Assembly (NCBI RefSeq): GCF_019048065.1
Contig: NZ_CP077291.1
Coordinates: forward strand, 4,278,001 to 4,342,000
Source of the DNA: Citrobacter farmeri
Lineage (GTDB): Bacteria; Pseudomonadota; Gammaproteobacteria; Enterobacterales; Enterobacteriaceae
Direction of reading: 5' to 3'
DNA length: 64,000 nt
Each line of letters begins with the position of its first letter. Within the stretch, counting starts at the first letter, position 1. Position numbers and translations under genes: made by a program. The notes under the pieces are model-generated. The model worked only from the letters and a program-made list of their open reading frames with translations, did no database searches and was not told where the DNA came from. Of the stretch, positions 48,405 to 58,667 are shown piece after piece.

Positions 48405-49754
48405 ATGCTGGATAAAATTGTTATCGCCAACCGCGGCGAGATTGCATTGCGAATTCTTCGTGCCTGTAAAGAACTGGGCATCAAGACTGTCGCTGTGCAC
48501 TCAAGCGCGGATCGCGATTTAAAGCACGTATTACTGGCGGATGAGACGGTTTGTATTGGCCCGGCCCCGTCCGTAAAAAGTTATCTGAACATCCCCGCTA
48601 TCATCAGCGCCGCTGAAATCACTGGCGCGGTGGCAATTCACCCGGGTTATGGCTTCCTCTCTGAGAACGCCAATTTTGCTGAACAAGTTGAACGCTCTGG
48701 CTTCATCTTCATCGGCCCGAAAGCTGACACCATCCGTCTGATGGGTGACAAAGTGTCGGCCATCACCGCGATGAAGAAAGCTGGCGTCCCGACCGTACCA
48801 GGTTCTGACGGCCCTCTGACCGACGATATGGATGCTAACCGCGCCCATGCTAAACGCATCGGCTATCCGGTTATCATCAAGGCGTCCGGCGGCGGCGGCG
48901 GTCGCGGTATGCGCGTAGTACGCGGTGACGCGGAACTGGCGCAATCCATCTCCATGACCAAAGCGGAAGCGAAAGCGGCTTTCAGCAACGACATGGTTTA
49001 CATGGAGAAATACCTTGAGAACCCACGCCACATCGAAATTCAGGTGCTGGCAGACGGTCAGGGTAACGCGATCTATCTGGCTGAACGTGACTGCTCTATG
49101 CAGCGTCGTCACCAGAAAGTCGTCGAAGAAGCACCCGCACCGGGCATTACCCCGGAACTGCGTCGCTACATCGGTGAGCGTTGCGCGAAAGCGTGTGTGG
49201 ATATCGGCTATCGTGGCGCAGGCACCTTTGAGTTCTTGTTCGAAAACGGCGAGTTCTATTTCATTGAAATGAACACCCGTATTCAGGTTGAACATCCGGT
49301 GACCGAAATGATCACTGGTGTTGACCTGATCAAAGAACAACTGCGCATCGCTGCGGGTCAACCGCTGTCGATCAAGCAAGAAGAAGTGCAGGTGAAAGGC
49401 CATGCGGTGGAATGCCGTATCAACGCCGAAGATCCGAACACCTTCCTGCCGAGTCCGGGTAAAATCACCCGCTTCCACGCGCCAGGTGGTTTTGGCGTGC
49501 GTTGGGAATCGCATATTTATGCCGGTTACACCGTACCGCCGTACTATGACTCAATGATCGGCAAGCTGATCTGCTACGGCGAAACCCGTGATGTAGCAAT
49601 TGCCCGCATGAAGAACGCGCTACAGGAACTGATCATCGACGGCATCAAAACCAACGTTGATTTGCAGACCCGCATCATGAACGACGAGCACTTCCAGCAT
49701 GGTGGTACCAACATCCACTATCTGGAGAAGAAACTCGGTCTTCAGGAAAAATAA
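48405..49754 (+). CDS. accC: Biotin carboxylase AccC
   Basis: ATP-grasp subunit (449 residues) that carboxylates biotin on Acc[18 protein letters not shown] start, glycine-rich ATP loop [11 protein letters not shown] near residue 160, and catalytic [19 protein letters not shown] 48405 preceded by CGAGG is chosen; the frame opens upstream inside accB. Confidence 0.99.
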
Positions 49755-49794
49755 CATTAGACCGATCGCCTATCGGTAATGATGTCTGCGCGTT

Positions 49795-49830
49795 AAACGC
49801 CGGGTTTTCGATGAAAATCCGGCGTTTTTT
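49795..49830. terminator. Bidirectional terminator after accC
   Basis: AAACGCCGG at 49795-49803 pairs with CCGGCGTTT at 49819-49827, with additional pairing of GTTTT and GAAAAT inside and T to 49830. It sits between accC and the convergent DUF4432 gene. Confidence 0.92.
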
Positions 49831-49836
49831 ATGGCG

Positions 49837-50883
49837 TTAGCGATAACTGCCTATTTCCATTTTCAACGCCTCTATCGCCGCCTCGTTTTCCACAATACCG
49901 AGCTCAAAGTCGTAATTCACTGTTTCACCGGGCTGAATAAACGCCAGACGCCCCTGGGCACGCTCTTTCGCTCGGCCATCAGGAAAACTGTTGCTTACTT
50001 CCAGCCCCATCACATATTCTCCCGCGCCTAAATTTTTCCACTGGATAAAATTAGGTAACTGCCGGGTATTGAATTTCTCATAGATCCCCCAGCCCAGTTG
50101 ATGGTTGAACAAAGCAACTTTACTCATTCCTTCCTCATCGCTATTGAGCGCCATGTAGTAAACCTGCTCTGCAAAACCCGGCTGTGGCGGGCTAATAGTT
50201 AAATGATCCGCTAGCCCCTCCTCAGCTCTCGGCGTACGCGGCACAACACGTCTTGCCGACAGAATAATTTCCGCCTCCGGGGAAAGCAGCGGCCAGCCGT
50301 AGTTGAAGTGATAGAGTATTTGTAACGGCTGTGGAGTGAACCCGTTATTCGTCACCTTATCCGTAATGTGCAGAACATTCCCACCATACGTACAACGAAT
50401 CGTTCTCTCCAGGGTCAGATTCTCACCAAACAGGCGCGTTTCCCGTACCTTGCCGTTAATAATAAATTCAATCCCCTTTTCGCTACGCTCAGTACGATAG
50501 CCCACCTCTTCGGCCGGGATCGAGGCCAGCCGCCCGTGCAACCCCAATGTTTCGCCGTCATCTTCGCAGGGTGTACCGATATAGCTCAGGCCACAGGTCG
50601 TCAGTAGCCCAGCATAGAAACTGCGTAAAAAGCCGTTACCCTGAGGTTCAAAGAACGTGGGGGCAACCATCCCACCTGGCGCGATAAAAGAGAGTGAGGT
50701 CTCTTTGTAGCTGGCCCAGGCGATATCCAGCGCCCGATCTTTCACCACGGTGAAGGAAAGCCCACCACCGGTTCGAACATCGAATGCTTCTGTTCCTTTC
50801 GCTCTGCCGCTACATAACTCATAGTGTTTAATGCCAGCGACCTGAGAGAGATCGCCAATCCACGGCCAGATTTCATTTTTCAT
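49837..50883 (-). CDS. DUF4432 aldose-1-epimerase-like protein
   Basis: A 348-residue galactose-mutarotase-fold protein of the DUF4432 family. Conserved patches include VVKDRALDIAWASYKE, FLRSFYAGLLTTCGL, GLHGRLASIPAEEV and LYHFNYGWPLL. Such genes commonly occur in carbohydrate operons, where a role as epimerase or mutarotase is presumed but not proven. Its start overlaps the upstream kinase stop (ATGA), so it is the last gene of the sugar operon. The exact reaction is unknown. Confidence 0.85.
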   Translation of the reverse strand: MKNEIWPWIGDLSQVAGIKHYELCSGRAKGTEAFDVRTGGGLSFTVVKDRALDIAWASYKETSLSFIAPGGMVAPTFFEPQGNGFLRSFYAGLLTTCGLSYIGTPCEDDGETLGLHGRLASIPAEEVGYRTERSEKGIEFIINGKVRETRLFGENLTLERTIRCTYGGNVLHITDKVTNNGFTPQPLQILYHFNYGWPLLSPEAEIILSARRVVPRTPRAEEGLADHLTISPPQPGFAEQVYYMALNSDEEGMSKVALFNHQLGWGIYEKFNTRQLPNFIQWKNLGAGEYVMGLEVSNSFPDGRAKERAQGRLAFIQPGETVNYDFELGIVENEAAIEALKMEIGSYR

Positions 50884-51842
50884 AGGGTCGCGTCCTGAAC
50901 AGACTGGGCATGACGCTGAATAAACGCATCGACGTCCTCAAGTCGGGAAGTACCTTCCATTGGGCCACGCTGCGTGACTGCCATCGCGCCGCAAACATTA
51001 GCGTATTGCAAGGCTTTATGCGCATCAAAACCGAGCAGACGAGAGGCCACGTATGCGCCACCGAAGCAATCCCCAGCCCCGGTGGGATCCACCTCATCAA
51101 CCAGGTAACTATCTACATGAAATTGTTCCTGTGCAGAGTAATAGCTCGCGCCCTTGCTACCTCGTTTTACAATCACTTCTTTGACGCCTTCAGCAAGGAA
51201 GCCAGCAATTGCACGATCCGGCGTAGAGTGCGGCGAAAGCAACAGGACTTCACCTTCACTGGGCATATAAATGTCGGTTAATTCGAGAACAAAGTGCAGT
51301 GCATCGCGCATTTCTGGAATATCAAGCATCTCTTTGCGAATATTAGGATCAAAAGAGATCATGCCACCATTTGCTTTTACTATGGTTACCGCTTTTTTAA
51401 CGGCATCAACCATATGGAATGAAAACAATGATGAACCCATTATGTGAAAATGCGTGCAATCTTTCAGAATGTGCTCATCGACATGTTGTGCCGATAATTT
51501 TCCACAAGCGGCATTCTTGATATTAAAAATAAAATCACGATCGCCAGAGTGGTGGTAAGTGACAAATGCGCTGCCCGTCGCCTCCAGTGGCAGTCTGGAT
51601 ATTCCCCTAATATCAACCCCATCAGTAGCAAGTCGGTGAATATTAATATCACCAAAACCATCATTGCCGACGCAGCTAATAATACCGCAAGATACTCCAA
51701 ATCGCGTAACCTGATCGATAAAGATAGCCGGAGCACCGCTAGGGTATGGACCGTTCCACACGCCTGGTTGATCAAACGGTTGCCCGATTCGGCTTGCCAT
51801 AATTTCAACCAGAATTTCCCCAATCGTGAAAACCTTACTCAT
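50880..51842 (-). CDS. PfkB-family sugar kinase (kinase 1)
   Basis: Ribokinase-fold kinase of 320 residues. The N-terminal GEILVEIMA strand, substrate-lid glycines, and the C-terminal PfkB signature DPTGAGDCFGG with catalytic Asp258 are intact. It shares distinctive stretches with the second kinase encoded at 57374-58333 (HIMGSSLFSF, SFDPNIRKEML, ALQYAN), so the two are paralogues. Likely phosphorylates the imported ketose or its monophosphate; which step is unresolved. Located 21 bases after the permease gene. Confidence 0.9.
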   Translation of the reverse strand: MSKVFTIGEILVEIMASRIGQPFDQPGVWNGPYPSGAPAIFIDQVTRFGVSCGIISCVGNDGFGDINIHRLATDGVDIRGISRLPLEATGSAFVTYHHSGDRDFIFNIKNAACGKLSAQHVDEHILKDCTHFHIMGSSLFSFHMVDAVKKAVTIVKANGGMISFDPNIRKEMLDIPEMRDALHFVLELTDIYMPSEGEVLLLSPHSTPDRAIAGFLAEGVKEVIVKRGSKGASYYSAQEQFHVDSYLVDEVDPTGAGDCFGGAYVASRLLGFDAHKALQYANVCGAMAVTQRGPMEGTSRLEDVDAFIQRHAQSVQDATL

Positions 51843-51863
51843 ATGATTAATCCCCTGAAATAA

Positions 51864-52853
51864 TCAGCTGCGTTTTCTTTTATTTCTGACATCAACATAT
51901 ACCGCAACCAGAATGACCAGTCCTTTAACCACCATCTGGTAAAAGTAAGGAACATTCATTAAATTCATACCATTATTTATGACACCAATGGTTAATGCGC
52001 CAATCATGGTACCGATTACCGTCCCATAGCCCCCATTAAGGCTGGTTCCCCCCAATACGGCGGCAGCGATAGCATCCAGCTCATAGCTGATTGCAGAGTT
52101 GGGTTGCCCGGAATAAAGGCGGGAAGCGAGGATCATACCGCTGATCCCGGCCAGTACGGCTGTTATCATAAAGACCTTAATCTTCAGACTGACAACGTTA
52201 ATGCCAGAATAAACTGCAGCCTCTTTATTTCCACCAGTAATATAAATCTTGCGGCCAAATGCCGTTTTCGTGAGAATAAAATGGTTAACCAATAACAACA
52301 CCAGCAGAATCCAGATGGGAATCGGCACCGATAAAAATTCACCGTTACCCAGAGCAAGGAAAGCATCGTTCTTGATCATTACCGGTGTGCCATCTGTCAC
52401 AATATAGGCAATGCCGCGGAATATACCCATCGTAGCGACTGTCACAATAAAAGAGGGAATACCTGCCAGTGCCGTTAAACCACCATTAATCAGGCCCAAC
52501 ACCAATGCGGCAACAATCGACAGTGGCACCAGTAAAATAAATGGAATACCCCATGAAGCACCAAGTGCCGCAAACGTCCCAATCAATGCAATGGTAGAAC
52601 CGACTGACAGATCAATATCACCGAGAAGTAATACATAAGTCATACCGTAAGCGGTAATAGCAATAATGGAAACCTGAAGGGTAATATTGATAATGTTATT
52701 GGTTGTAAAAAAACTGTCATTCATAAAGCTAAACAGAATAATCAATACCAGCATGCCACTCAAAATTCCGCCATATTGTTTAAATAGCTGCCTGACCCCA
52801 TTCACACCAGGTGTAACCGGACTTTTCGACACCGGCAAACTCTTCTCACTCAT
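51864..52853 (-). CDS. ABC sugar transporter permease (RbsC family)
   Basis: Integral membrane permease of 329 residues with about nine or ten hydrophobic segments and the typical YVLLLGDIDLSVGSTIAL and AAAVLGGTSLNGGYGTV motifs of the ribose/autoinducer-2/monosaccharide branch. It directly abuts the ATPase gene. Imports a free monosaccharide with the neighbouring ATPase and binding protein. Confidence 0.93.
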   Translation of the reverse strand: MSEKSLPVSKSPVTPGVNGVRQLFKQYGGILSGMLVLIILFSFMNDSFFTTNNIINITLQVSIIAITAYGMTYVLLLGDIDLSVGSTIALIGTFAALGASWGIPFILLVPLSIVAALVLGLINGGLTALAGIPSFIVTVATMGIFRGIAYIVTDGTPVMIKNDAFLALGNGEFLSVPIPIWILLVLLLVNHFILTKTAFGRKIYITGGNKEAAVYSGINVVSLKIKVFMITAVLAGISGMILASRLYSGQPNSAISYELDAIAAAVLGGTSLNGGYGTVIGTMIGALTIGVINNGMNLMNVPYFYQMVVKGLVILVAVYVDVRNKRKRS

Positions 52854-54353
52854 TTAACATACTCCTGTAGCCGCAGCCATTACCTGCGTCTGAGTTAAAT
52901 TTTCACAAGAATAAATATCAGCAACCATTTTATTGCGCATTACCACCAGACGATCGCTTAATGCCATGACCTCCGGCAGTTCAGAGGAAACCAGAATAAT
53001 TGCCGTCCCAGCCGCAGCCAACTGGCGTATCACGTTATAAATTTCAAACTTAGCCCCAACATCCACACCGCGCGTCGGTTCATCAAGCAGCAGAATTCGC
53101 GGAGTCCTCTCCAGCCATTTCGACAACACGATTTTTTGCTGATTACCCCCACTTAATGCCCCAACCGACTGATGAATGGAGCTAACTTTAGTGTTCATCC
53201 TGGTGACTGCCGCTAGCGTTCGCTGCTCCTCTTCCCGATGATTAATCAGACCCAGCCCTGATGCGTTATATTGAAAGGCAACATGGTGAGTATTCATATT
53301 CACGTCATGCATCAGCACCAGCCCTTCTTCCTTGCGGTTTTCTGTGACAAATGCAATACCCTGATCGATAGCCTGTTTTGGGCTCGAAATCATGACCGCT
53401 TTACCATCAATCAGCAGGGTTCCCTGATAAGAGATCAGACCAAAGAGTGCTTTCATCACATCTGAACGCCCGGCACCGACCAGACCAAAAAACCCCAGCA
53501 CTTCGCCTGGACGAACAGAGAAACTCACCTCCCGGAAGAGGTGCGGATGAGTAAGATCCCGAACCTCAAGTTTTGCCGGCACGCTTTCATCCGGCCTGTC
53601 TCCAATACGTGGCGGCCAGATATTCTTCATTTCCCGTCCGACCATTTGTGCAATCAGATGCTTAATATCGCTCTCTTTTTTCTCATGTGTGGCAATATAT
53701 TCCCCATCACGAATAACCGAGATATCATCAGAAATCCGCATGATTTCATCCATTCGATGGGAGATATAAATGACAGCACAACCACGCTGCTTTAATTTCG
53801 CGATGATGTTGAAAAGTATTTCTGCTTCGTTATCGCTGAGCGAAGATGTCGGCTCATCCATAATGACGACATCTGCTGGATAACTTAACGCCTTAGCAAT
53901 TTCAACCAATTGCCGATGCGCCATTGACATATTGCCAACGAATGTCTGCGGATCAAGTGGAATACCCAGATCGGTCAATAATTGCTGACAATCAGCAAGC
54001 ATCTTTTTATCGTTAATGACCCCAAAACGCCGCGGCTCATTGTTGGCATAAATATTCTCTGCCACGGTCATATTATTACTCAGACTGAGCTCCTGAAAAA
54101 TAATGGAAATACCAAGCTGGCGCGAGTGCTGCGGATTGTTGATAGTGATGATTTCACCGCGTAACTTTATTTCACCTGATGTTGGCGGGTATACACCAGC
54201 CAGAATTTTCATGAGTGTCGACTTTCCCGCACCGTTTTCGCCCAGTAATGTATGCACGCGTCCCCGGCGAAGAGTCAGCGTAATATCCTTCAGCGCCTGT
54301 ACGTGGCCAAACGTCTTTGCAATATGCGAAACATCAAGAATAATATCCGTCAT
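52854..54353 (-). CDS. ABC sugar transporter, double ATP-binding protein (RbsA family)
   Basis: ATPase of 499 residues with two ABC domains. The first has Walker A GENGAGKST at residues 38-46 and DEPTSSLSDNEAE. The second has the degenerate Walker A GLVGAGRSD and signature SGGNQQKIVLSKWL, as in RbsA. A strong hairpin lies between this gene and the binding-protein gene upstream. Confidence 0.95.
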   Translation of the reverse strand: MTDIILDVSHIAKTFGHVQALKDITLTLRRGRVHTLLGENGAGKSTLMKILAGVYPPTSGEIKLRGEIITINNPQHSRQLGISIIFQELSLSNNMTVAENIYANNEPRRFGVINDKKMLADCQQLLTDLGIPLDPQTFVGNMSMAHRQLVEIAKALSYPADVVIMDEPTSSLSDNEAEILFNIIAKLKQRGCAVIYISHRMDEIMRISDDISVIRDGEYIATHEKKESDIKHLIAQMVGREMKNIWPPRIGDRPDESVPAKLEVRDLTHPHLFREVSFSVRPGEVLGFFGLVGAGRSDVMKALFGLISYQGTLLIDGKAVMISSPKQAIDQGIAFVTENRKEEGLVLMHDVNMNTHHVAFQYNASGLGLINHREEEQRTLAAVTRMNTKVSSIHQSVGALSGGNQQKIVLSKWLERTPRILLLDEPTRGVDVGAKFEIYNVIRQLAAAGTAIILVSSELPEVMALSDRLVVMRNKMVADIYSCENLTQTQVMAAATGVC

Positions 54354-54367
54354 AGTGGCCTCTGTAT

Positions 54368-54397
54368 CACAACAAAACGCACGGGCGTTTTGTTGTG
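54368..54397 (-). repeat. 13-bp perfect hairpin between binding-protein and ATPase genes
   Basis: CACAACAAAACGC at 54368-54380 is exactly complementary to 54385-54397, loop ACGG. It fills most of the 59-base gap. Such hairpins downstream of binding-protein genes commonly stabilise the upstream mRNA or partly terminate, giving more binding protein than membrane components. Confidence 0.85.
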
Positions 54398-54412
54398 AGG
54401 TGACGAGTGGAC

Positions 54413-55303
54413 TTATTTTCCGGTATATACACCCGGTTGCACAGGGATCAGTTTTTCTACCGGCTTGCCGTTAAGATGATCAACGGCGGCGTCCACCGCT
54501 TTGGCACCCATCTGATCCGGGTACTGGCGGATAACCGCTACGAAAGTTTTTCCGCTATCAACCGCATCCCGCGCTTCTTTCATCCCATCAAAACCAATGA
54601 TTTTAATGTTATCGTTACGGGCAGATTTCGCCGCAATGACGGCCGCCAGCGCCGCATCGTCGCCGAAGCCAAACAACCCGCTCAGATTTGGGTTTGCCTG
54701 CATAATATTCTGTGCCGTGGTCAATGCTTCAGCACGAGTAATACCGGGTTGCTCTGCAACAATCTTGATATCTGGCGTCTCGCTTAATCCTTTTTTAAAC
54801 CCATCAACTCGCGCCACCACCGATTGCAAAGCCGGATAAGAGATAATGGCCACCGTGCCTTTACCCTCTAAAAGTTTACCCATTAATTTCCCAGCTTCGA
54901 CACCACCTGCATAGTTATCAGTGGCAACGTGCGCAACCACGGGCACACCATCGGCAGCCACATCTACAGTAATCACCGGAATGCCTGCTTTATCAGCTTT
55001 AATAATAGCGGCCTGCACACCTTTGGAGTCAACCGGGGAAATAATAATGGCATCAACTTTTTTAGTAATAAAGTCTTCAACATCAGAAAGTTGTTTATTT
55101 AAGTCCTGATTAGCGATAGAGATACTTAAATCGACATTATCTTTTTTTGCCTCATCCTTCATCGCATTAGCCAGATCGATATAAAAAGGGTGCTGCTGTG
55201 TTAATAACGAGGCACCGATTTTATACTCTTTGGCCCAGGTACTTTGTGATAACAAAGCCAGACTAATTAATATAGTCGAGCTGAGTAATTTAATTTTTTT
55301 CAT
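54413..55303 (-). CDS. Periplasmic sugar-binding protein (RbsB family)
   Basis: Type I periplasmic binding protein (296 residues). Signal peptide MKKIKLLSSTILISLALL to about Ala24 (STWA-KEYKIG). The mature part shows the ribose-type pattern DLSISIANQDLNKQLSDVED and IIISPVDSKG. ATG 55301-55303 is placed 5 bases after AGGAG; a GTG two codons upstream overlaps that site and is rejected. The ligand cannot be read from the sequence. Confidence 0.94.
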   Translation of the reverse strand: MKKIKLLSSTILISLALLSQSTWAKEYKIGASLLTQQHPFYIDLANAMKDEAKKDNVDLSISIANQDLNKQLSDVEDFITKKVDAIIISPVDSKGVQAAIIKADKAGIPVITVDVAADGVPVVAHVATDNYAGGVEAGKLMGKLLEGKGTVAIISYPALQSVVARVDGFKKGLSETPDIKIVAEQPGITRAEALTTAQNIMQANPNLSGLFGFGDDAALAAVIAAKSARNDNIKIIGFDGMKEARDAVDSGKTFVAVIRQYPDQMGAKAVDAAVDHLNGKPVEKLIPVQPGVYTGK

Positions 55304-55339
55304 AAACACTCCTGATTATTTTTGTAGGGTATAATAATT

Positions 55340-56261
<922 letters not shown>

Positions 56262-56315
56262 AAAACTATCACAGGGAATACGTATAAAAGCGTGACGAAT
56301 CTCAAAACATCACAA

Positions 56316-56371
56316 CTAAACTTACAAAACAAAAATAAAAATATTTGCTAACTTTGAAAGTGTAAGTTTAG
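56316..56371. promoter_or_regulatory. Operator candidate B (CTAAACTTACA / TGTAAGTTTAG)
   Basis: A perfect 11-bp inverted repeat: CTAAACTTACA at 56316-56326 and TGTAAGTTTAG at 56361-56371. Its core CTTACA...TGTAAG is the same as in candidate A, whose left arm starts 102 bases away; the pair could support looping. Confidence 0.7.
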
Positions 56372-56532
56372 AAAACCTCGCCAATAAATTATTTTTTTAT
56401 TAAATATCATATAATTAAGGTAATCTTATGCAGAAAGCCAGGCTGTCGATATTCATTTCAAAACGTAGATAGTGATGAAGGATAACTTTCAAAGAAAAAA
56501 ACATGGGACTATAGTGTACGCAATTCAGGCTA

Positions 56533-57363
56533 ATGATGAGTGTTAACGTGCCCAGGAAATCATCTAATCTTTTGAAACGCAGGCTAAAGATTGCTGAAAT
56601 CGTCGCCACCCAGGGGGAGATAAAAGTTGATGACCTGTCTGCCCAGCTTGGTGTCTCCGGCGTCACTATTCGCGGCGATTTGAGTTATCTGGAGCAGCAG
56701 GGATATCTAAAACGCTCATTTGGTGGCGCTATCGCTACTCCAGCGCCACCAGGCGAACCCGAGCAATTTCAACCATCCACTACGCTTTCCCTGGCGCAAC
56801 AGATGGAGAGTGCACGACACTGCGTCAGACTTATTCGCGACCGAGATACGCTGTTTCTCGGTCACGGTTCGCTTTGTCGAAAAATAATTCCCTTGTTAAG
56901 CGAAGTGAAAAAGCTGCGCCTGGTAACCAACGATCCAGAACATGCGATCCTGGCCAATCAATTCATTGACGGAGAGATCATTCTGGTCGGGAATGAAATG
57001 CTGCGTCCGGATACCGTGCTGGCGGGAAAATCGCTGGAGCAGGCACTGCAGCATTACACGATCACCCACAGTATTCTCGAAATTAGTCATCTTGACACTG
57101 ATGGCACACTAAATACGGATATGGCCAAACTGGCTCCGGCCTGGCAGCTTTGCTTCGATCATGCGCAGAATAAAACCGTTATTATTACCGCAAACGCGGT
57201 ATCGCCAGTGGCAATTGGCAATCTCGATCAGGCGGAATATGTGATCGTCTGCCGCAGCATCAACGAGCAATATCAGCGACAATTACAGGATGCTGATTTT
57301 GTTATCCTCTACACCAGCAATGAGTGCTTTACCTGGTCTAACCGTGAAAGGCTTAAGGAATGA
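56533..57363 (+). CDS. DeoR-family transcriptional regulator
   Basis: A 276-residue sugar-type regulator. The N-terminal DeoR helix-turn-helix is at about residues 18-70 (VDDLSAQLGVSGVTIRGDL, then LKRSFGGA), followed by a DeoRC sugar-phosphate-sensing domain that is divergent: the usual GxTT-type loop appears as FLGHGSLCRKII. Start ATG 56533; the ATG at 56536 is better spaced from AGG and is equally possible. Divergent from the aldolase operon; presumably its repressor with a sugar phosphate as inducer. Confidence 0.9.
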   Translation: MMSVNVPRKSSNLLKRRLKIAEIVATQGEIKVDDLSAQLGVSGVTIRGDLSYLEQQGYLKRSFGGAIATPAPPGEPEQFQPSTTLSLAQQMESARHCVRLIRDRDTLFLGHGSLCRKIIPLLSEVKKLRLVTNDPEHAILANQFIDGEIILVGNEMLRPDTVLAGKSLEQALQHYTITHSILEISHLDTDGTLNTDMAKLAPAWQLCFDHAQNKTVIITANAVSPVAIGNLDQAEYVIVCRSINEQYQRQLQDADFVILYTSNECFTWSNRERLKE

Positions 57364-57373
57364 GAGGACGTTT

Positions 57374-58333
57374 GTGACACTAACCATCTGTACTATGGGC
57401 GAATTACTGGTCGAATTTTTATCCCGTAGCCCGCAGCAAAAATTCACGCAACCTGGCGAGTTTATCGGGCCGTTCCCCAGCGGAGCGCCTGCCATTTTCG
57501 CCGCACAGACAGCAAAACTCTCTCACAGAGCGATTATTTTCGGCTGTGTCGGAAATGATGAGTTTGGCCGTCTGAATATTGAGAGGCTGCGGCATGAAGG
57601 GGTGATCACCGATGGTATCCATATCATGGAAAACGCAGTAACTGGCACAGCCTTCGTCAGCTATCGTAGCCAGCAGGAACGCGATTTTGTTTTTAATATT
57701 CCCCACAGCGCCTGCGGTTTGTTTACTGCCGAGCACATTGAACCGGGACTGTTGCAACAGTGCAGCCATATTCACATCATGGGATCATCACTGTTCTCAT
57801 TCCGAATGATCGACGCGATGCGCAAAGCGATTTCGGTGATCAAAGCCGCTGGCGGTACCGTCTCTTTCGATCCCAATATCCGCAAAGAGATGCTAACTAT
57901 CCCCGAGATGGCGCAAGCACTCGATTATATCATTGAATATACAGATATCTTTTTACCCAGCGAAAGTGAGCTTCCCTTCTTTGCACGCCATAAAAATCTG
58001 TCCGAAAAACAAATTATCAGTGACCTCCTTCACAGCGGCGTGAAGCATATCGCCGTGAAGCGCGGGCAGCGAGGCGCCAGCTATTATCAGCAGGAAAACG
58101 GGACTATGCAGGAGTTGCACTTTGACGGGCACAAGCCCAAAACTATCGATCCTACAGGCGCTGGCGACTGCTTTGGTGCCACCTTTGTTACGCTGTTTCT
58201 TTCTGGTTTTCCGGCACAGAAAGCACTGCAATATGCTAACGCCAGCGGAGCGCTCGCCGTCATGCAGCAGGGACCAATGGAAGGGATTTCATCGCTGGGC
58301 GACATCGAAAACTTTCTTTCCCACCACCCCTGA
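57374..58333 (+). CDS. PfkB-family sugar kinase (kinase 2)
   Basis: Ribokinase-fold kinase of 319 residues starting at GTG 57374, 6 bases after GAGAGG and 10 bases after the regulator stop. The PfkB signature is DPTGAGDCFG with catalytic Asp265. It is a paralogue of the kinase encoded at 50880-51842, sharing most core motifs but differing in lid and C-terminal regions. Cotranscription with the regulator rather than with the transporter suggests a different regulation or the other phosphorylation step. An in-frame ORF reaches back into the regulator gene to 57290 without a ribosome site. Confidence 0.9.
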   Translation: MTLTICTMGELLVEFLSRSPQQKFTQPGEFIGPFPSGAPAIFAAQTAKLSHRAIIFGCVGNDEFGRLNIERLRHEGVITDGIHIMENAVTGTAFVSYRSQQERDFVFNIPHSACGLFTAEHIEPGLLQQCSHIHIMGSSLFSFRMIDAMRKAISVIKAAGGTVSFDPNIRKEMLTIPEMAQALDYIIEYTDIFLPSESELPFFARHKNLSEKQIISDLLHSGVKHIAVKRGQRGASYYQQENGTMQELHFDGHKPKTIDPTGAGDCFGATFVTLFLSGFPAQKALQYANASGALAVMQQGPMEGISSLGDIENFLSHHP

Positions 58334-58424
58334 ATGTCAATTTTTCTGTCAGATTATTTTCTCTGTCTGAAGAGTTGCCGTAGAATTGCCCGTTTCTCGC
58401 CTCCTCATGATAAGGAAACCTTCC

Positions 58425-58667
58425 GTGGACAACCGTTTTGTTCAGGCCCACAAAGAGGCGCGCTGGGCGCTGTGGCTGACCCTTCTCTATCTTGCTGCGT
58501 GGTTAGTAGCTGCTTACTTACCTGATTCGGCGATCGGCATTACTGGCCTGCCGCACTGGTTTGAACTGGCCTGTCTGCTGACGCCGCTGATCTTCATTTT
58601 ACTGTGCTGGGCCATGGTGAAATTTATCTACCGAGACATTCCTCTGGAGGATGATGATGCAGCTTGA
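58425..58667 (+). CDS. yhdT: YhdT, DUF997 small membrane protein
   Basis: An 80-residue inner-membrane protein with two hydrophobic segments (WLTLLYLAAWLVAAYL and LACLLTPLIFILLCWAM) and an acidic C-terminus. GTG 58425 with AAGGA 8 bases upstream gives the E. coli length. It overlaps panF by 11 bases and is a presumed accessory of that symporter. Confidence 0.93.
   Translation: MDNRFVQAHKEARWALWLTLLYLAAWLVAAYLPDSAIGITGLPHWFELACLLTPLIFILLCWAMVKFIYRDIPLEDDDAA

Follow-up and report, generated by a model that had tools for sequence, protein, structure and literature searches.

A hybrid-like ABC importer and aldolase locus between accC and yhdT in Citrobacter farmeri, with D-tagatose as its probable substrate

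Introduction

The gatYZ and kbaYZ pathways of Escherichia coli start from galactitol or amino sugars that are imported by the phosphotransferase system (PTS). For D-tagatose, a PTS cluster has reportedly been the subject of work in Klebsiella oxytoca, and operons combining an ABC importer with a tagatose kinase (TagK) and GatZ are said to have been studied in Agrobacterium by Wichelecki in 2015. Here we describe an island of eight genes lying between accC and yhdT in Citrobacter farmeri, within a 64,000-nucleotide stretch of contig NZ_CP077291.1 (positions 4,278,001 to 4,342,000) that we call the window, and argue that it probably serves the use of D-tagatose, combining features of both of these systems.

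The locus is not new, being already known and common and made of parts of known kinds. Its E. coli CFT073 counterpart, c4013-c4018, was listed in 2010 as ‘SAC No. 8’ (PMC2831201) and the accC..yhdT block in 2026 as ‘GR 23’ (PMC12928451). The passages of the two papers that deal with the locus suggest a ‘5- or 6-carbon sugar’ and a hypothetical tagatose aldolase, and give no tested substrate for it. Genes for tagatose-bisphosphate (TBP) aldolase are described as commoner in B2 strains in PMC5996543.

Results

The accC–yhdT interval of the window holds eight intact open reading frames (ORFs), spanning 49837-58333, each with a clear family match according to ORF calls and profile matches (Table 1). 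Six form a minus-strand operon in the order aldolase, sugar-binding protein (SBP), ATPase, permease, first PfkB kinase (K1) and DUF4432 protein, the last two overlapping by 4 bases, and a DeoR-family regulator followed by a second PfkB kinase (K2) runs divergently on the plus strand. The interval is bounded by the end of accC at 49754 and the start of yhdT at 58425; in K-12 MG1655 and BL21(DE3) these two genes are adjacent. The original prediction, made from the window alone, had read the interval as eight genes parting two K-12 neighbours and as a ketose-catabolism locus with ABC import of a free sugar and a GatY-type aldolase; all the ORFs lie where it placed them, and the family matches bear out both descriptions. 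The gene set is not a product of chance, because the same gene order is seen again in other genera and the dN/dS values against E. coli Nissle are low, at 0.014-0.052 in the six island genes that allow the computation (synonymous sites of K1 and the aldolase being saturated). The G+C content of the island is 47.4% against 53% for the window, in which ARAGORN found no tRNA gene.

The aldolase clears the curated TBP-aldolase cut-off (TIGR01858, 443.55 bits). Its identity is 71% to its counterpart in a PTS-type cluster (L060) that comprises a fructose-type EIIBC, an EIIA-HPr, a 1-phosphofructokinase (1-PFK)-type kinase and GatZ, 64% to E. coli GatY and 59% to KbaY. It is probably a member of the class II TBP aldolase family, predicted to cleave tagatose 1,6-bisphosphate.

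We compared the presence of the island with published sugar use. According to the Biolog results of PMC7924626 and PMC4334874, E. coli Nissle 1917 and DSM 30083T respectively use D-tagatose and K-12 does not, and the growth data of PMC10101011 show no growth of BL21(DE3) on this sugar. The island is present in Nissle and DSM 30083T and missing from K-12 and BL21(DE3), so that presence and use agree in four of four strains; the sugar data for DSM 30083T and the genome, that of ATCC 11775, come from different cultures of the same type strain. D-tagatose is mentioned once in the main text of PMC7924626, section 7 of which links no genes to it. A relative of the tagatose PTS EIIBC was found in 5 of 5426 complete E. 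coli genomes by blastn, which would miss very distant genes, and a PTS route therefore does not explain the tagatose use. This candidate was rejected for Nissle, which is not among the five, and for DSM 30083, which is not among them either and whose best EIIBC relative reaches only 44% identity. The five are PK8275, PK8261 and Br_112_kylling, with the gene on plasmids, and HCM-24C-3 and HCM-27C-1, with it on chromosomes; the host is chicken for four, with none listed for one.

The island itself, counted as present when at least 80% of the island query was covered in one place, is found in 1406 of the 5426 genomes, about a quarter. We inspected eleven annotated copies (GMF054, Nissle, CFT073, DSM 30083 and seven further down the ranking), all of which sit at the accC–yhdT site. 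No broken gene is flagged in ten of them; the exception is DSM 30083T, where K2 has an internal stop at codon 192 of 312 (L017:13886-14821). In that genome K1 is the sole intact strong TagK match, two further matches being weak (<90 bits), and for this reason K1 together with host enzymes appears to be enough for D-tagatose use there.

Within the family, the tagatose-kinase model matches (E 1e-70) in 32 of 392 sampled genomes, and these loci sort as 15 ABC-type, 16 PTS-type and one other ABC form (G201). All 16 PTS-type loci carry EIIBC, 14 the aldolase (no match in G095 and G374) and 10 a GatZ/KbaZ gene within the fetched stretch, and they have a DeoR gene and a TagK-like kinase in the divergent arrangement of the island. 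Across the phylum, 13 TagK matches besides that of the window were found among 398 genomes (E 1e-90). A GatZ/KbaZ-like gene (47-54% identity) adjoins TagK on the same strand in all 13, some gene overlaps here stemming from over-long ORF calls, and five also have ABC genes 55-63% identical to those of the island; with the island aldolase as reference, no GatY-like aldolase was seen in the fetched stretch of any of them. In two acetic acid bacteria (L096 and L097, Ameyamaea and Swaminathania), a KbaZ-like gene stands together with genes for a DeoR regulator and a TagK-like kinase.

The same partner appears among enteric loci of the ABC type. Of the 14 in which the gene following K1 can be resolved, out of 15, 5 have GatZ there (G011, G077, G085, G135, G366), four have DUF4432 (the window's genome, G000, with G170, G263 and G359) and five have neither (G074, G112, G229, G303, G367); the GatZ calls rest on Pfam for L048, L049 and L056 and on a PF08013 search for G085 and, in pieces, G135. 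A GatZ/KbaZ match occurs somewhere in the genome of 14 of the 15 carriers. In the window's genome the single match is KbaZ, about 122 kb from the island and near a second TBP-type aldolase. A plasmid of E. coli UID2309220033 (L149) also has a GatY-type aldolase gene and gatZ, where CDP-glycerol transferase genes and IS1 copies surround them. Because the aldolase, DeoR and K2 match the PTS-type cluster, and the ABC genes and K1 match the ABC-TagK-GatZ operons, the island looks like a fusion of such an operon with that half of the enteric tagatose cluster which comprises the aldolase, DeoR and K2; GatZ would later have been lost or replaced.

Both kinases score under the curated tagatose-kinase cut-off of 420 bits (NF049991; Table 1), and because of this we call them TagK-like only. 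K1 matches a solved relative, 3iq0/3k9e (‘putative Ribokinase II’), with 654 bits. Identities as KDG kinase, fructokinase or ribokinase were rejected for both, the scores being far below the cut-offs. K1 matches K2 at the aligned positions presumed to form the sugar and phosphoryl-transfer sites of ribokinase, and 16 other positions consistently separate 15 K1 from 14 K2 sequences. A kinase tree of 49 rows, covering ORFs of 290-420 aa (hence not broken ones) and omitting the repeat-genome loci L088-L091, L093 and L094, unites the 15 K1 sequences in a clade of their own (98/98) and, in a second clade (100/100), the 14 K2 sequences with 15 kinases from PTS-type loci and those of G374 and Gilliamella. 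A wider tree, made of 28 of these rows and 13 new ones and subject to a long-branch warning and an uncertain root, puts the K1 and K2 groups together, beside the kinases of two ABC-GatZ operons (99/98). For K2, the likeliest start is GTG 57374 (319 codons) or ATG 57395, 31 bases past DeoR and the choice of the E. coli annotation, and not 57290 inside DeoR.

Among the remaining genes, the best NCBIfam match of the DeoR protein is AgaR, at 101 bits under a cut-off of 260. ACTTTCA/TTACAAA elements recur in the divergent region, for instance at 56246-56261 and near 56485, and from a comparison in which 7 of 13 extracted intergenic regions were aligned they may be regarded as candidate DeoR operators. 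The DUF4432 protein matches PDB 3ty1, a ‘Hypothetical aldose 1-epimerase’, with E 2.4e-31. The ABC proteins all lie under the RbsABC/AlsABC equivalog cut-offs, and the binding protein differs from RbsB at 6 of the 12 positions that we presume to contact ribose; a ribose or allose importer was rejected on both grounds.

The ABC-type loci of the family (the window's genome, G011, G074, G077, G085, G112, G135, G138, G170, G229, G263, G303, G359, G366 and G367) lie between accC and yhdT in 10 of 15 cases and elsewhere in four, that of G138 being on a short contig; the island genes are in pieces in G085, G135 and G138. Named carriers of whole or reduced islands include E. coli, Superficieibacter electus, two Trabulsiella species, Klebsiella spallanzanii and two Enterobacter isolates. 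Enterobacter sp. BIGb0383 (L058/L090) has the island at accC–yhdT with K2 and DUF4432 missing, and its genome gave no GatZ/KbaZ match. At E 1e-60, one of seven same-genus genomes has a TagK-like match, in a PTS-type locus (G004), and six have none.

In 22 genomes with accC and without the ABC-type island, 19 have a short accC–yhdT gap of 81-222 bases, yhdT not being found in the fetched stretch of the other three (G006, G016, G018). The gap is visibly similar in sequence between K-12 and six resolved same-genus genomes. Where the junction is occupied, its intergenic DNA differs from the empty gap on both sides and on the right is shared between the window and Nissle (Table 1), and there are therefore two junction forms, both recurring across genera. 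The original prediction had called the island inserted, which holds relative to K-12 and fits less well with an occupied junction that recurs as widely as this. Synonymous divergence from Nissle is 1.67-2.51 for the island genes where computable and 0.55-1.06 for accC, panF and prmA; the island values, near saturation, are about twice those of panF and prmA. The trees of the island and of its flanks have little resolution, and the data allow both an old presence followed by losses and a spread by recombination.

Table 1. Features of the island and its junctions (positions in the window)
Feature	Position	Strand	Evidence
Left junction, unlike the accC–yhdT gap of island-free genomes	49755..49836		gap comparison
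DUF4432 protein, aldose-1-epimerase (mutarotase)-like, last operon gene	49837..50883	-	PF14486 346.8 bits; PDB 3ty1
K1, PfkB sugar kinase of tagatose-kinase type, predicted D-tagatose 6-kinase	50880..51842	-	NF049991 406.9 bits; tree clade
Ribose/monosaccharide-type ABC permease	51864..52853	-	PF02653; 43% identity to E. coli RbsC
ABC ATPase, two ABC stretches	52854..54353	-	PF00005 x2; 44% identity to RbsA
Periplasmic sugar-binding protein, alternative ATG start 55303	54413..55309	-	PF13407; 30% identity to RbsB
GatY-type class II ketose-bisphosphate aldolase, first operon gene	55340..56194	-	TIGR01858 485.0 bits
Divergent regulatory region, 29.6% G+C	56195..56532		composition; intergenic alignment
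DeoR-family regulator	56533..57363	+	PF08220, PF00455
K2, second TagK-like PfkB kinase	57374..58333	+	NF049991 359.1 bits; tree; 50% identity to K1
Right junction, upstream of yhdT	58334..58424		58 bases 94.8% identical to E. coli Nissle, unlike K-12

Discussion

We think it probable that D-tagatose is the main substrate of the island, that K1 is its first kinase and that the locus is a hybrid of two tagatose modules. D-tagatose, favoured already in the original prediction, is the substrate that we infer to be best supported, the score of the aldolase, the relatives of the locus and the sugar use of four strains all leaning the same way. The binding protein, ATPase and permease would import free D-tagatose, which K1 would phosphorylate, most likely at C-6. 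Phosphorylation of tagatose 6-phosphate at C-1 would follow, most likely by the housekeeping PfkA, with K2 as a helper or an alternative; PfkA is proposed on the basis of the section of PMC3147056 that names 6-phosphofructokinase I for the N-acetylgalactosamine (GalNAc) route. The aldolase would then split tagatose 1,6-bisphosphate into dihydroxyacetone phosphate (DHAP) and glyceraldehyde 3-phosphate, perhaps with assistance in trans from KbaZ, while DUF4432 probably interconverts anomers and DeoR probably represses both arms until the pathway sugar arrives.

Several observations weigh against this reading. Both kinases miss the tagatose-kinase cut-off, and the ligand of the binding protein is beyond the reach of sequence reading. 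The strain comparison has n=4, with shared ancestry, and follows phylogeny (B2 against A). Other loci could explain the tagatose use of Nissle, because Nissle and K-12 differ on many carbon sources, 12 supporting growth of Nissle only and 5 of K-12 only in the comparison of PMC7924626, which also reports growth of Nissle on L-sorbose and D-psicose; DSM 30083T likewise uses L-sorbose in the data of PMC4334874. ABC-type clusters of K. spallanzanii (L092) and an Erwinia metagenome-assembled genome (MAG; L095) have no aldolase between DeoR and the binding protein, nor did tblastn find one in either locus, and G074 lacks K2, DUF4432 and any GatZ/KbaZ match. The PTS-type loci were equated with the tagatose PTS cluster of K. 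oxytoca by gene content. Lastly, we recognised no enzyme or mutant test of the locus in the open-licence literature, subscription papers lying mostly outside it.

Two of the alternatives overlap with the favoured explanation in its exit steps. The first, which we hold to be a possible though tentative one, keeps D-tagatose as substrate and has tagatose 6-phosphate made by K1 leave mainly by epimerisation to fructose 6-phosphate through KbaZ/GatZ acting in trans, with the aldolase secondary. E. coli GatZ and KbaZ do interconvert these two phosphates, as stated in the relevant passage of PMC11907403, and the constant company of GatZ/KbaZ and TagK in the 13 loci outside the family, where no GatY-like aldolase stands nearby, is what such a route would look like, as is the match in 14 of 15 ABC-type genomes. 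Against it, the window island has no GatZ, the distant KbaZ gene sits by another TBP-type aldolase, the island aldolase heads its operon, and G074 has no GatZ/KbaZ match.

Rather doubtful is a self-contained route with the 6-phosphate as the product of one island kinase and the 1,6-bisphosphate as that of the other, the division of labour that the original prediction had proposed. Both kinases are present in 13 of 15 loci of the ABC type (fragmented in G085 and G135; the short contig of G138 shows no K1), the dN/dS of K2 is low, 16 positions set the two apart and the island has no 1-PFK-type kinase. Their agreement at the presumed sugar-site and phosphoryl-transfer positions argues against such a split, as do the grouping of K2 with kinases of PTS-type clusters that have a 1-PFK-type kinase besides, the broken K2 of the tagatose-positive DSM 30083T and the missing one of G074.

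We regard as unlikely a different ketose (D-psicose, L-sorbose or a modified sugar), for which the tagatose likeness would reflect ancestry only. The PfkB and GatY families have shifted substrate before (YdjH/YdjI), the sub-threshold kinase scores fit such a shift, and Nissle does grow on D-psicose and L-sorbose. Its growth on L-sorbose, however, is attributed to sor genes in PMC7924626, DSM 30083T is tagatose-positive and psicose-negative in the data of PMC4334874, the aldolase is above the TBP cut-off, and GatZ in the corresponding slot of relatives points to tagatose phosphates. Scavenging of two sugars through one importer, K1 acting on D-tagatose and K2 on D-psicose or a related ketose, would account for the growth of Nissle, whose K2 is intact, on both sugars and for the use of tagatose but not psicose by DSM 30083T, whose K2 is broken. 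We regard this too as unlikely. Psicose 6-phosphate would then have to exit via an epimerase, and AlsE finds its best match in the window's genome at only 39% identity.

If D-tagatose is indeed the substrate, the island would account for strain differences in the use of a sweetener that is offered as a prebiotic. For a locus that roughly one in four complete E. coli genomes contains, the reading offers a testable substrate, and it describes a sugar pathway seemingly assembled from two others, with two related kinases retained.

The comparison with known systems places the island as follows. The E. coli copy listed as c4013-c4018 and GR 23 has the same genes in the same order at the same site, at about 78% DNA identity, and gatYZ and kbaYZ share with the island the TBP aldolase family, at the identities given above. 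With the enteric D-tagatose PTS cluster, described as tagKTH and gatY in the corresponding passage of PMC10101011, it has in common the GatY-type aldolase (70-73% identity in PTS-type loci) and the divergent DeoR and TagK-like kinase; it differs in importing by an ABC system, in having no EIIBC, EIIA-HPr or 1-PFK-type kinase, and in the extra TagK-like kinase, K1, of its import operon. The ABC-TagK-GatZ operons likewise hold a binding protein, an ATPase, a permease and a TagK-type kinase in one operon, with proteins 49-63% identical, but have GatZ and no aldolase, whereas the window island has an aldolase and DUF4432 and could draw on a GatZ function at most in trans. An ABC route with two kinases had been expected to be unusual, which is only partly borne out in view of these operons, found in 5 of the 13 phylum loci, and of an enteric form that is common in E. 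coli.

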